53,233 bases of DNA from an uncultured Bacilli bacterium (GTDB lineage: Bacteria; Bacillota_I; Bacilli_A; ML615J-28; CAG-313). Under the pieces are notes generated by a model. The model ran no database searches and was not told where the DNA came from. It worked only from the letters and a program-made list of their open reading frames with translations. The stretch is taken from the NCBI GenBank assembly GCA_944326155.1, contig CALVCV010000009.1, positions 1 to 53,233 of the forward strand. Direction: 5' to 3'. Of this stretch, positions 103 to 52,955 are shown piece by piece. The position numbers were made by a program, and so were the translations under genes. How positions within the stretch are numbered: the first letter of the stretch is position 1; each line of letters begins with the position of its first letter.

Positions 103-855
103 TTATATTTCATCTACTGTCTTGAACGTGTATCCTTCTTGCGTAATTTTATCAATTACAATAGGCAAGGCTTCTTGATTACTACGTGATACACTATGCA
201 TTAAAATTATTGCGCCATTATGTAAATTATCCATAATCGTCTTTACACAATAATCTACACCTTTTTGCTCATTTTGATTCCAGTCCACATAAGCAATTGA
301 CCAAAAAATCGTTTTAAATCCTAAACTCTTAACATTTAATAATGATGTTCTATTAAACAAACCTTCAGGGGGCCTAAAATATTTTGCCATTTTTGTGCCT
401 GTTAAAAGATAAAATTCATCTTCTAGTTTTGTTAAGTCTTTTTCCAAATCGCTTAAAGATAGTGTCATAATATTTTTGTGGGCATACGAATGATTACACA
501 CCAAATGACCTTCATCTACAATTCTTTTGGTTAACGAGGAAAATCTTTTTACAAAATCTCCTGTAATAAAGAATGATGCCTTTACATTTTTTTCTTGTAA
601 AGTGTCTAAAATTTTGGGCAAATTATCATTGTCATAGCCAGCATCAAAAGTTAAATAAACACTTTTTTCATCTGGACCTACATAAAAGCTATTTGTACCA
701 TCAATTTCTTCTTGGTATTTACCAATTTCTGGTACTTGGTGATTTTTATTTTTTCGAAAACCCCACCCACTAGCATTTGATGTAATATAAGTTGATGTGA
801 AAAATATGGTGAACATGACCATTGCAAAAATTAAAAATTTATGTATTTTTTTAAT
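103..855 (-). CDS. pdaA: PdaA-type polysaccharide deacetylase (spore cortex delta-lactam pathway)
   Basis: Secreted NodB-fold deacetylase. Counted from the ATG at 822, the catalytic motifs are TFDAGYD (about 58), HSYAH (about 111), RPPEG (about 150), DWNQN (about 180) and LMH (about 207). The TFDxGY form is typical of PdaA, which deacetylates muramic acid residues for spore cortex delta-lactam formation, rather than of general chitin deacetylases (TFDDG). Start choice: the first ATG (822) lacks a nearby Shine-Dalgarno and cuts into the signal peptide. AAAGAGGT (862-869) sits 6 nt before an ATT codon at 853-855, which would give a classical KKIHKFLIF signal peptide. I therefore extend to 855 with a rare ATT start; 822 is the conservative alternative. 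A candidate prespore promoter lies upstream. Family confident, start less so. Confidence 0.8.
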   Translation of the reverse strand: MKKIHKFLIFAMVMFTIFFTSTYITSNASGWGFRKNKNHQVPEIGKYQEEIDGTNSFYVGPDEKSVYLTFDAGYDNDNLPKILDTLQEKNVKASFFITGDFVKRFSSLTKRIVDEGHLVCNHSYAHKNIMTLSLSDLEKDLTKLEDEFYLLTGTKMAKYFRPPEGLFNRTSLLNVKSLGFKTIFWSIAYVDWNQNEQKGVDYCVKTIMDNLHNGAIILMHSVSRSNQEALPIVIDKITQEGYTFKTVDEI

Positions 856-881
856 AATTACACCTCTTTCATGTCCAAAGA

Positions 882-910: not shown

Positions 911-1641
911 TATTTTTTAAATAAAAGCATAGCAATTCCCACAAGAAAAATATAGCAATTTAAATATAACCAAACAAGTAGAGTAATAATAGTTGATAAA
1001 TTACCATAGACAAACATATATTTATTTACCATCATTTGATTAATTATATTTTGATATAAAATGCTAAGTATAAAAAGAATGCTTGTTATAATAATAGCAC
1101 TTTTTAATGTTTTTTTAATTGTAATCTTTATTGGAATAATATATTTATAAATTATAGCAATATATAAGGTTATAAAAATAAACGGACAAATAAATTGTAA
1201 AATATTGACTATTATAAAATAGGGTGATGCAAGTCTAGTTTTTACATATCCCAAATACATAACGGCAACAATCATAATAATCGCAACAAATAAAAATAAA
1301 ATAGTTAAAATTATTGAAATGATTCTTAATTTCAATCTTGGTCTATATTTTATATTATAATATATTTCATCGGCAATAATTAATAAATGATGTGTTAATT
1401 TTGAACTTGTCCAAAGTAAATTAATGGTAAAAATTATAATATGAAACAATTGATTTTTTAAATTTAAATCTATCTTTGTTTCTACTAAATCCAAATGAAT
1501 TAAAATATTAAAAATTAAATATAATAAAGGAATTATACTAAGTAATAAATAAAAGGCAAAAGATGAAGCCAAAATAGTGGGATTGATTTTGGCATTTAAA
1601 TAACTTATTTTTTTGAACAATTGTTTTATGCTATCTATCAT
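910..1641 (-). CDS. YihY/BrkB family inner-membrane protein
   Basis: A 243-residue polytopic membrane protein of the YihY (former 'RNase BN'/BrkB) family, recognised from the N-terminal segment NPTILASSFAFYLLLSIIPL and about six hydrophobic helices spanning the protein. The molecular role of the family is not established, and this copy is somewhat shorter than usual. The ATG at 1641 has no Shine-Dalgarno. Instead a consensus-like sigma-G promoter ends six bases upstream, so the mRNA probably starts at the ATG. The gene ends next to pdaA, itself a sporulation gene, so a role in the developing spore is an inference from context. The family call is fairly secure; the function is unknown. Confidence 0.75.
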   Translation of the reverse strand: MIDSIKQLFKKISYLNAKINPTILASSFAFYLLLSIIPLLYLIFNILIHLDLVETKIDLNLKNQLFHIIIFTINLLWTSSKLTHHLLIIADEIYYNIKYRPRLKLRIISIILTILFLFVAIIMIVAVMYLGYVKTRLASPYFIIVNILQFICPFIFITLYIAIIYKYIIPIKITIKKTLKSAIIITSILFILSILYQNIINQMMVNKYMFVYGNLSTIITLLVWLYLNCYIFLVGIAMLLFKK

Positions 1642-1646
1642 ATTAC

Positions 1647-1675
1647 TATTATGACAATTTTTTTATCATTCATAC
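1647..1675 (-). promoter_or_regulatory. sigma-G-type promoter of yihY, leaderless arrangement
   Basis: GTATG (1671-1675), 17-nt spacer, CATAATA (1647-1653), a full match to GHATR-N17/18-CATNNTA. A start site about 7 nt downstream falls at 1640-1641, the first base of the ATG, which agrees with the absence of a Shine-Dalgarno. Confidence 0.55.
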
Positions 1676-10606: not shown

Positions 10607-11251
10607 CTATATTTCGGATAGTTTTTTGCCAACTAAAACTTCAGGATTTACATATTTACCATCTTTTAATACTTGAAAGTAAACATGGTTGCCAGCTTCT
10701 TTATCAATGTCTGTATTACCACTTGTACCAACTTTATCACCTTGAGAAACTTCTGCACCTAGGGTTACGGTTACCTCACTTAAACCATAGTAACAGGTTT
10801 TTACTTTATCACTATGTTCAATTACAACATAATTGCCATAAAGAGGACTTTCTTTGATTTCAATAACCTTCCCACTTAGAGCTGCTAAGACTTCAAATGA
10901 AGTATTATCTTTTTTCGCATAACCTGTTCCACTGCTAGTACGATATGTATTACCATATTTAATCAATGCTTTTAATTGATCTTCCTTTGAAGCATTTTTA
11001 TCATAAAATTTTCTAACAACTTGATATTCTAGATTTTCATCAAATGGGAGTATTAACACTTCTTCAGGCTTAGTATCCACATTCTCATCATCAATCGGTG
11101 GAGTTACAACTGGTGGGTTATCATCAACTGGTTCTTCTTGTCTATTAATTGAAGCAGATATTGTAAGTGCTACTAATAAAACTGCCAAGACACCGACAAA
11201 GAAGAAAAATTGAAATTTATTTTGGCCAATTTTTTTAATCCAATTCTTCAC
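10607..11251 (-). CDS. spoIIQ: SpoIIQ-like degenerate LytM (M23) protein
   Basis: One N-terminal transmembrane helix (about 14-33), a Pro/Asp linker (35-65), then a LytM-type domain (about 95-205): FEVLAALSGKVIEIKESPLYGNYVVIEHSD, TCYYGLSEVTV, GNHVYFQVLKDGKYVNP. This is the SpoIIQ pattern; in Bacillus SpoIIQ is made in the prespore and docks with SpoIIIAH during engulfment. The zinc/catalytic residues are lost: the first motif lacks the expected His and Asp (SSGTGYA), and HxH reads HVY, so it is a structural, non-enzymatic version. GTG start with GAGGTGA upstream. The location next to DUF1146 and the atp operon matches Bacillus order. A prespore promoter precedes it. Confidence 0.82.
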   Translation of the reverse strand: MKNWIKKIGQNKFQFFFFVGVLAVLLVALTISASINRQEEPVDDNPPVVTPPIDDENVDTKPEEVLILPFDENLEYQVVRKFYDKNASKEDQLKALIKYGNTYRTSSGTGYAKKDNTSFEVLAALSGKVIEIKESPLYGNYVVIEHSDKVKTCYYGLSEVTVTLGAEVSQGDKVGTSGNTDIDKEAGNHVYFQVLKDGKYVNPEVLVGKKLSEI

Positions 11252-11267
11252 TGTATCACCTCGTAAT

Positions 11268-11296
11268 TAGTATGATACAATTCAATTTTTTTATAC
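11268..11296 (-). promoter_or_regulatory. sigma-G/sigma-F-type promoter of spoIIQ
   Basis: GTATA (11292-11296), 17-nt spacer, CATACTA (11268-11274), a full match to GHATR-N17/18-CATNNTA. It lies between the DUF1146 stop and the spoIIQ ribosome binding site. Bacillus spoIIQ is mainly sigma-F dependent; the two factors share the -35 preference. Confidence 0.6.
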
Positions 11297-20677: not shown

Positions 20678-20711
20678 AAAAAAATATTTAGATTTTCATC
20701 TAAATATTTTT
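20678..20711 (-). terminator. terminator of the ywlB-like gene
   Basis: A perfect 14-bp stem (20680-20693 with 20698-20711), TTTC loop on the plus strand, and T run on the minus strand. It insulates the rpiB-atp operon from the upstream prfA-spoIIR block. Confidence 0.8.
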
Positions 20712-21147
20712 ATTCTATATCGAATTTTAAAATTTGAGCATCTTCTAATTCGGTCCCCTTAATATTTTGTCCATTTATCAAAAAATTATCTTGATCAATT
20801 TGATAAAAAGCCAAACTTTGAAATAAGGAAATCACTTCTTCTGTCTTACCAATCGAAACAAAGCTTTCTATTTCATCAGCCTTAGCTTTATTTATAAGGG
20901 CTAAAAACATATCATTAATTAAAGTAGGAGATAAATTTTTTTGAAAAATGAAATATCTAATTAAACCATACTCACAAAATTTTTCGTATGTAATATACCC
21001 CTTTACAAGATTTTCATCTAGAATAGCCACACCATTTGTTAAAATTTCTTCGTCAATTTCGGTTACAGAGTTTATATTTAACAAAAACTGAATAATATCT
21101 TTTTTTAAATCTTCATTTATATTAATTACTTGCAAAATCATCACCAT
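20710..21147 (-). CDS. YwlB-like small protein (possible GNAT fold)
   Basis: A 145-residue protein not recognised with certainty. Its place between spoIIR and rpiB corresponds to YwlB in Bacillus, an acetyltransferase-like protein, and the spacing of strands (NGVAILDENLVKGYITYE, FVSIGKTEEVISLFQSLAFYQ) is compatible with a divergent GNAT fold, but no acetyl-CoA loop is obvious. The start is uncertain: ATG GTG ATG follow one another at a TATAAT-like site, and no clear Shine-Dalgarno precedes the first ATG. Confidence 0.5.
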   Translation of the reverse strand: MVMILQVININEDLKKDIIQFLLNINSVTEIDEEILTNGVAILDENLVKGYITYEKFCEYGLIRYFIFQKNLSPTLINDMFLALINKAKADEIESFVSIGKTEEVISLFQSLAFYQIDQDNFLINGQNIKGTELEDAQILKFDIE

Positions 21148-21169
21148 TATATTATAGAAAAAAATGGTG

Positions 21170-21649
21170 TTAAATATGCTTTTTCTTTTTTAATAAATCC
21201 CAAAAAAAACTATGATATTCTACTTCATGATTATCTTCAAAAGATATATTGAAAAAATCAGGATAAAGAAGTGTCCAAAAGTTATTTCCTTTACCCATTC
21301 CAATTGTAATTAAAATCGTATCATATATACCTGCTTGGACAATTTTACCTTGATAGGCTTTGGCTTCATAGTTGGATGCCGTTTTTTTAACTGTTATTTG
21401 GTCTTTTGGAAATTTTTGATTTAAAATTATTTCTAAATCTGCTAAATCAAAATCGATAGGATTATGATTGACTAAATAATTTTTAACCACCTTTTTTACC
21501 GCTAATTTTGTTTCTTGATCAGCTTCACTATTTGAATTGGCAACTATTCGTAAACGTAATTCTTTTTCTTTTGGGTTACAACAAGTTAACAAACATAAAT
21601 ATATGATAATTACCAATAATTGAAGAATTCTTTTTTTCATTTTTTTCAT
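21170..21649 (-). CDS. spoIIR: stage II sporulation protein R
   Basis: SpoIIR is the prespore signalling protein, secreted across the septum, that triggers SpoIIGA processing of pro-sigma-E. The family hallmarks are present: LRLRIVANSNSEADQETKLAVKK (about 31-53), then GIYDTILITIGMGKGNNFW with LLYPDFF (usual form NWWCVLYPPLC), and EVEYHSFFWDL at the end. An N-terminal hydrophobic signal segment (about 7-24) ends in Cys-Cys. Length 159 aa is short for the family. The order prmC-spoIIR-ywlB-tsaC of Bacillus is kept with small changes. GGTGAT precedes the ATG. Confidence 0.88.
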   Translation of the reverse strand: MKKMKKRILQLLVIIIYLCLLTCCNPKEKELRLRIVANSNSEADQETKLAVKKVVKNYLVNHNPIDFDLADLEIILNQKFPKDQITVKKTASNYEAKAYQGKIVQAGIYDTILITIGMGKGNNFWTLLYPDFFNISFEDNHEVEYHSFFWDLLKKKKHI

Positions 21650-21656
21650 TATATCA

Positions 21657-21692
21657 CCAATATTATTATTGGTAAATTTTGGCTAGTTATAC
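21657..21692 (-). promoter_or_regulatory. weak prespore-type promoter and dyad upstream of spoIIR
   Basis: GTATA (21688-21692), 17-nt spacer, AATAATA (21664-21670), one mismatch to the sigma-G -10 and a poor match to sigma-F. A 6-bp dyad CCAATA-N4-TATTGG (21657-21672) overlaps the -10. Chance is plausible. Confidence 0.3.
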
Positions 21693-35866: not shown

Positions 35867-35896
35867 GTATAAAAATTATTAATTTTGACCATAATA
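35867..35896 (+). promoter_or_regulatory. sigma-G promoter of sspI
   Basis: GTATA (35867-35871), 18-nt spacer, CATAATA (35890-35896), a full match to GHATR-N17/18-CATNNTA; the start site would fall about 10 nt before the AGGAGG at 35905-35910. Bacillus sspI is sigma-G dependent. Confidence 0.75.
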
Positions 35897-35916: not shown

Positions 35917-36123
35917 ATGGATATCAGTATTAGAAAATCAGTTATTGATAACTTAAAAAATGCATCAAGCGATGAAATATTTAAAACAATTGAAGACGCC
36001 ACAGTAACTACTGAAGAAAAAGTATTACCAGGTCTTGGTGTTTTATTTGAAGTATTATGGAAATCATCTGATGCAACTTTTAAACAAACATTAGCAACAC
36101 AAGTAGCTAAAAATTTAAATTAA
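35917..36123 (+). CDS. sspI: small acid-soluble spore protein SspI
   Basis: A 68-residue SspI family protein: ISIRKSVIDNLKNASSDEI followed by TVTTEEKVLPGLGVLFEVLW. EEKxLPGLGVLFExxW is the signature of SspI, a minor small acid-soluble protein found only in the spore core and made in the prespore. Strong AGGAGG and a sigma-G promoter precede it. It is one of few plus-strand genes here and overlaps the convergent EIIB-like gene by 4 nt. Length matches Bacillus SspI (71). Confidence 0.93.
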   Translation: MDISIRKSVIDNLKNASSDEIFKTIEDATVTTEEKVLPGLGVLFEVLWKSSDATFKQTLATQVAKNLN

Positions 36124-52121: not shown

Positions 52122-52889
52122 TTATTGGCTATTTTTTTGATATATATAAAATAAACCCTCTAATAATATATTTTCATCATAAATATAATTTATTTCTAGT
52201 AAATCTTTAATCACTTTCGCATAACCACCAGTTAAGATAACATTTATTTCCATAACTTGCAATGCTTTTTTAAATTTTTTCACAAGTCCTTCAATCATAG
52301 CAACATGGCCAAATACAATGCCACTTTGAATACAAGTAATCGTTTCGTTGCCTATAACATTAATAGGTGCCTCAATCGATGGTCTAGTTAATTTAGAAGT
52401 TGTATGAATTAAACTATCTAAGCTTCCTTTAATACCTGCACAAATAGCTCCTCCAATAAATTCTTTATCTTTGGTCACAACTAAAACTTTTGTAGCTGTA
52501 CCCATGTCAATAATAATAGATGTTCCAGGGTATTTAATATATGCTCCAACAGCATCACACAATAAATCAGCACCGAGTTGTTTAGGATTTTCAATTTTAA
52601 TTTTTAAACCACTTTTAAGACCAGGTCCTACAATAATTGGTTCAATTTGATAATACTTTTTAATCATATTTTTAAAAATATGGTCTAATTGAGGAACAAC
52701 ACTTGAAATAATCGCTCCTTCAATTTTTTCTAGTGCTAATTCTCTACTAATAGAAACATTAATTTTTTGATAATAATCGTCTTCTGTTAAAGTTGGGCTG
52801 GTCATATACCGATAGGTTTTACAAATTTTTTCATTCACTGATAAACCCAAAACAATATTTGTATTGCCAATATCAAATAATAATACCAT
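52122..52889 (-). CDS. coaX: type III pantothenate kinase
   Basis: First step of coenzyme A synthesis from pantothenate, 255 aa. ASKHA-fold features: LLFDIGNTNIVLGL (phosphate 1), the catalytic region KQLGADLLCDAVGAY (usual GxDR; here GADL), SIIIDMGTATKVLVV, and GGAICAGIKGSLDSL. AGAAGG precedes the ATG; promoter TTGATA-N17-TATAAT. Confidence 0.95.
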   Translation of the reverse strand: MVLLFDIGNTNIVLGLSVNEKICKTYRYMTSPTLTEDDYYQKINVSISRELALEKIEGAIISSVVPQLDHIFKNMIKKYYQIEPIIVGPGLKSGLKIKIENPKQLGADLLCDAVGAYIKYPGTSIIIDMGTATKVLVVTKDKEFIGGAICAGIKGSLDSLIHTTSKLTRPSIEAPINVIGNETITCIQSGIVFGHVAMIEGLVKKFKKALQVMEINVILTGGYAKVIKDLLEINYIYDENILLEGLFYIYQKNSQ

Positions 52890-52926
52890 ATTTATTTACC
52901 TTCTTATTATTTATTTTATTAAAATC

Positions 52927-52955
52927 ATTATACACCATTTTTGCTTTTTTATCAA
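52927..52955 (-). promoter_or_regulatory. sigma-A promoter of coaX
   Basis: TTGATA (52950-52955), 17-nt spacer, TATAAT (52927-52932) with GTG just upstream. Confidence 0.65.

Follow-up and report, generated by a model that had tools for sequence, protein, structure and literature searches.

A forespore-type promoter and a predicted leaderless start at a yihY gene adjoining pdaA in a genus of uncultured Bacilli

Known systems and the yihY-pdaA locus

In the sigma-G regulon of Bacillus subtilis and Clostridioides difficile, boxes of the GnATR-N17/18-CATnnTA type precede the SASP, spoVT, spoVA and pdaA genes, the Bacillus-type consensus being GHATR-N17/18-CATNHTA. spoIIQ and spoIIR are sigma-F genes in B. 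subtilis. In C. difficile, the consensus sequences of sigma-F and sigma-G overlap (PMC7438776). Leaderless genes having a -10 element a few nucleotides before the start codon, a predicted transcription start at the ATG and no Shine-Dalgarno sequence are described for Deinococcus-Thermus, Actinobacteria and some Firmicutes (PMC12340547, PMC3160421), the Firmicutes genes showing promoters of sigma-70 type with the -10 element about 12 nt upstream (PMC3160421). The YihY/BrkB family (PF03631, TIGR00765) occurs in many non-spore-formers, and our literature search returned no link of substance between YihY, YfkH or BrkB and sporulation. Sporulation genes were noted in many Anaeroplasmataceae genomes in a published survey (PMC10868615).

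We analysed a stretch of 53,233 nt from an uncultured Bacilli bacterium, a spore-forming relative of the mycoplasmas, here called the window, in which a yihY gene adjoins a pdaA-like gene. Its features relevant to this locus, all on the minus strand, are:

103-855: pdaA-like muramic-acid lactam deacetylase gene (TIGR02884)
810-877: stem-loop of the pdaA leader, left arm TGGACATGA (869-877), right arm TCATGTTCA (810-818)
861-867: pdaA Shine-Dalgarno sequence AGAGGTG, lying between the stem arms together with the start region
882-910: pdaA promoter GTATA-N17-TATAATA, the first base of its -35 element being also the last of the yihY stop codon
910-1641: yihY, encoding a YihY/BrkB-family membrane protein of 243 aa (PF03631, six predicted helices)
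1639-1641: yihY ATG
1641: predicted transcription start on the A of the yihY ATG, placed by a 5-nt rule calibrated internally on the pdaA stems
1647-1653: -10 element CATAATA (AATACTA or AATAATA elsewhere in the genus)
1671-1675: -35 element GTATG (GTATG, GCATT or GTATT in the genus)
1680-1707: intrinsic terminator of the upstream M24 peptidase gene, its U-run abutting the yihY -35 element
1695-2960: M24 peptidase gene, upstream of and collinear with yihY

The yihY gene resembles the described leaderless genes in the short distance between -10 element and start codon, the start predicted at the ATG and the lack of a Shine-Dalgarno sequence, whereas those genes have housekeeping-type TANNNT boxes and yihY has a promoter of forespore type including a -35 element. 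Unlike them, the layout is found at one conserved gene, in a Bacilli lineage carrying sporulation genes. The genus has the same type of boxes as the known sigma-G regulon before the corresponding genes, but differs from it in that the -10 element may begin with A or T, in that the spoIIQ-like gene and spoIIR share the box and in that yihY is predicted to join without a leader.

As is usual for its family, the window's YihY exceeds the Pfam cut-off (84.9 bits against PF03631, cut-off 33.7), while it stays below the curated cut-off of TIGR00765 (35.7 against 73.15 bits). The AlphaFold model was weak (pLDDT 65), and Foldseek returned nothing below an E-value of 0.4. The neighbouring product reaches 268.2 bits against TIGR02884, its best family by about 100 bits, at a cut-off of 298, and the gene is therefore called pdaA-like. 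In contrast to the wide distribution of the family, yihY is restricted to sigG-bearing genomes in this order, being present in 19 of 20 genomes with sigG and in 0 of 23 without it (Fisher p 2.5e-11, ignoring phylogeny), where sigG was counted as a strong full-length match or, in one genome (G037), as a fragment at a contig edge. The sole sigG genome without yihY, G020, is a fragmented assembly. That yihY lies next to pdaA, as the initial annotation had noted, is borne out in the window and for the yihY genes detected in the order, and also in two sporulating genomes at class level (G044, G056). Five class-level genomes (G043, G046, G049, G055, G058) encode BrkB proteins without having sigG, showing that the link to sigG belongs to this yihY clade and not to BrkB at large. 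The present genome itself encodes sigG (L003; spore_sigG model, E 4.8e-106, 353 bits, below the curated cut-off of 457 bits) adjoining sigE, the sigG call resting on a genome search and the calls of SigF, SigE and SigK on neighbourhood and sequence. Connecting one YihY/BrkB clade with the forespore, with sigG and with PdaA, a cortex enzyme, would provide a testable setting for the function of this widespread family.

Promoter layout at yihY and its conservation

Read from position 1675 to 1639 on the minus strand, the window sequence is GTATG AATGATAAAAAAATTGT CATAATA GTAAT ATG, with a spacer of 17 and 5 nt from the -10 element to the ATG, confirming the GTATG-N17-CATAATA box reported initially (1647-1675). 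This box fits the Bacillus-type consensus exactly in the -35 element (GnATR), the -10 element (CATnnTA) and the spacer (17-18). The initial claim of a full match to sigma-G thus holds for the Bacillus consensus but not for the local one, from which yihY departs at the fifth -35 base: it is G or T at yihY in all five species of the genus and A at all 17 sites of the training set described below, all other positions agreeing. Four of the five species have A as the first -10 base at yihY, as also seen at spoVAC.

Conservation in relatives, on which the initial annotation had made its proposal depend, is found throughout the genus. The arrangement G[TC]AT[GT]-N17/18-[CA]ATA[AC]TA-N5-ATG is kept at yihY in 5/5 species, always with exactly 5 nt to the ATG; the four other genomes show GTATG-N18-AATACTA-N5-ATG (two), GCATT-N18-AATAATA-N5-ATG and GTATT-N17-AATAATA-N5-ATG. 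Their YihY proteins are only 38-52% identical to that of the window, indicating that the shared promoter spacing is not merely a product of low divergence. A -10 box with the 5-nt gap also precedes yihY in G006 (there TATAATA), G007, G029 and G030, and [ACT]ATA[AC]TA lies exactly 5 nt before the ATG in 9 of 22 yihY genes compared to 2 of about 300 other ORFs (p 2.8e-10, ignoring relatedness).

No Shine-Dalgarno sequence precedes the yihY ATG, neither in the window, as initially stated, nor in any of the five genus species; no in-frame start exists upstream of this ATG in the window, and the first methionine of YihY is invariant in the alignment. GAGG or GGTG motifs do occur before the yihY start in several relatives outside the genus (G008, G019, G032, G034, G038), suggesting that leaderlessness of yihY is not universal.

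The box alone is weak evidence, since strict matches occur near chance level in this AT-rich DNA: GHATR-N17/18-CATNHTA has 3 matches in the window, where about 2.9 are expected, and 75 in the genome, compared with 55 matches of the reversed pattern. An argument resting on the bare motif was therefore rejected, and it is position and conservation that make the yihY promoter convincing as a sequence-based prediction. Among the intergenic genome matches, a selection of which was inspected, are sites preceding the known forespore genes spoVT, sspI and an M23 (SpoIIQ-like) gene, as well as a small heat-shock protein gene and a VanY-type gene. As a local yardstick we used the upstream regions of spoVT, sspI, spoVAC and pdaA from species of the genus, yielding 17 sites at four forespore loci, all of which read G[TC]ATA-N17/18-[CAT]ATA[AC]TA. 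When any base is allowed at the fifth -35 position, the motif lies at most 90 nt upstream of 6 of the 58 window genes against 0.15 expected, i.e. pdaA, yihY, the SpoIIQ-like gene, spoIIR, the pantothenate kinase gene and one unnamed ORF, although neither yihY, having been seen before the motif was relaxed, nor pdaA, being a training locus, should count in this enrichment. The full arrangement of -35, -10, N5 and ATG gives 15 matches in the five genomes against 11 for the reversed control, yihY being the only gene matched in all five. Forespore-type boxes before known sporulation genes of the window are:

11268-11296, minus strand: box before the M23 peptidase gene (SpoIIQ-like, 10607-11251)
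21664-21692, minus strand: box before spoIIR (21170-21649)
35867-35896, plus strand: box before sspI (35917-36123)

The pdaA leader and the predicted transcription start

In about 20 of the 23 loci read, the Shine-Dalgarno sequence and start of pdaA are enclosed by an inverted repeat whose arms differ between genomes while staying complementary, as exemplified by AAGATGAATACAAAAA/TTTTTGTATTCATCTT in G019 and AGATACACCAA/TTGGTGTATCT in G056. Support for the stem comes from per-sequence codon shuffles (combined p 6e-16, ignoring relatedness; individual p 0.001 to 0.3 at stem-bearing loci), a covariation count being set aside, as MAFFT had misplaced two short rows. A search of positions 600-1900 against Rfam gave no match. 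Judged from its sequence, the repeat could act either as an RNA stem or as a DNA operator.

Of the 13 genomes whose -10 element can be recognised, 11 have the left arm of the stem starting exactly 5 nt after it, the exceptions being G029 (2 nt) and G056 (0, 3 or 6 nt, depending on the choice of box). If the pdaA stem starts at +1, the same 5-nt distance places +1 of yihY on the A of its AUG. The coincidence of predicted start site and ATG proposed initially is thus reproduced by this rule, and the yihY mRNA would be leaderless. As a leaderless mRNA that is conserved and driven by a sporulation promoter, it would bear on the use of non-Shine-Dalgarno translation in developing spores, for which our literature search found no reported case.

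The start codon of pdaA itself appears to be unusual. Neither ATG, GTG nor TTG is present at the start of the signal peptide (window 853-858, minus strand); ATT follows the AGAGGTG sequence in G000, G003 and G004, in place of which G001 and G002 have ATG. The window's pdaA probably starts with AUU at 853-855 (or 856-858), and in G009 the gene appears to use ATC.

Forespore sigma factor and alternative readings

We favour a model according to which RNA polymerase with a sigma-G-type factor would transcribe yihY in the forespore from G[TC]ATN-N17/18-HATAMTA, generating a leaderless mRNA with +1 on the A of AUG that would be translated without a Shine-Dalgarno sequence. yihY would be expressed alongside the adjoining pdaA, which is preceded by a separate promoter of this type, and YihY would reside in the inner forespore membrane while germ-cell wall and cortex are built. 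We assign a probability of roughly 0.75 to yihY being a forespore gene with a forespore promoter and a leaderless start, and less to sigma-G specifically being its factor. In the genus, sigF (spoIIAC; L144-L148) comprises region 2 only in G000, G004 and G003 (101, 98 and 79 aa), whereas in G001 and G002 it has 169-174 aa and region 3 is absent, spoIIAA and spoIIAB looking intact where read. Since the box is shared by the SpoIIQ-like gene and spoIIR and sigF is here reduced to region 2, the term sigma-G is better read as forespore (sigma-F/G); the initial interpretation is otherwise largely upheld, the forespore type of the claimed sigma-G promoter standing but not the assignment to sigma-G alone. 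More tentatively, and rather doubtful as a whole, a single class of forespore promoters might be read by sigma-G alone, sigma-F having degenerated to a remnant of region 2 in three of the five species; yihY would then have a dedicated leaderless mRNA, whereas the pdaA mRNA would carry at its 5' terminus a conserved stem enclosing the Shine-Dalgarno sequence and, in some members of the genus, be translated from AUU, so that two unusual 5' ends would control the pair while the cortex forms. Sigma-E and sigma-K readings of the yihY box were dropped on the basis of their known consensus.

Alternatively, the promoter might be one of sigma-F, the early forespore factor, or part of a single merged forespore programme. 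The SpoIIQ-like gene and spoIIR carrying the same box as sspI and spoVT, and the overlapping consensus sequences in C. difficile (PMC7438776), speak for this possibility, which we nevertheless consider unlikely because regions 3 and 4 are missing from the sigF of this genome, of which region 4 would read the -35 element, while sigG is intact.

A vegetative sigma-A promoter, composed of a -10-like AATAAT/CATAAT box and a weak -35 element, would leave yihY leaderless but not forespore-specific. The yihY -10 element does resemble TATAAT, G006 having TATAATA, and the Firmicutes leaderless genes mentioned above provide a precedent (PMC3160421); yet GTATGA matches TTGACA at only 2 of 6 positions, no sigma-70-type site with at least 9 of 12 matches was found having its -10 at the yihY box, the -10 element begins with C or A in the genus rather than with T, the box matches those of six known forespore genes and yihY co-occurs with sigG, rendering a sigma-A promoter improbable. 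Still harder to reconcile with the locus is expression by read-through from the M24 peptidase gene with the box being a chance match in AT-rich DNA, as might be suggested by the near-chance frequency of the strict pattern in window and genome and by the collinearity of the genes: the intervening terminator ends 4 nt ahead of the yihY -35 element, the four genus relatives have a terminator-like stem with a T-run in the corresponding position, box and exact 5-nt gap are retained despite divergence of the protein down to 38% identity, and no Shine-Dalgarno sequence is present to serve a read-through mRNA. We regard it as very improbable.

Other sites of this promoter type were observed besides those at known sporulation genes. 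The gene for a type III pantothenate kinase (52122-52889) is preceded, at a distance of 15 nt, by a forespore-type box (52905-52933, minus strand). Another box, at 21150-21179 (minus strand), lies 2 nt before the first and 8 nt before the second ATG of the ORF at 20710-21147, possibly a second near-leaderless gene as judged from this spacing. At spoVT, the -10 element CCATAATAA is mirrored by TTATTATGG overlapping the Shine-Dalgarno sequence, most clearly in G003 and G004 (L103, L104, L105), a repeat that might represent an autoregulatory operator.
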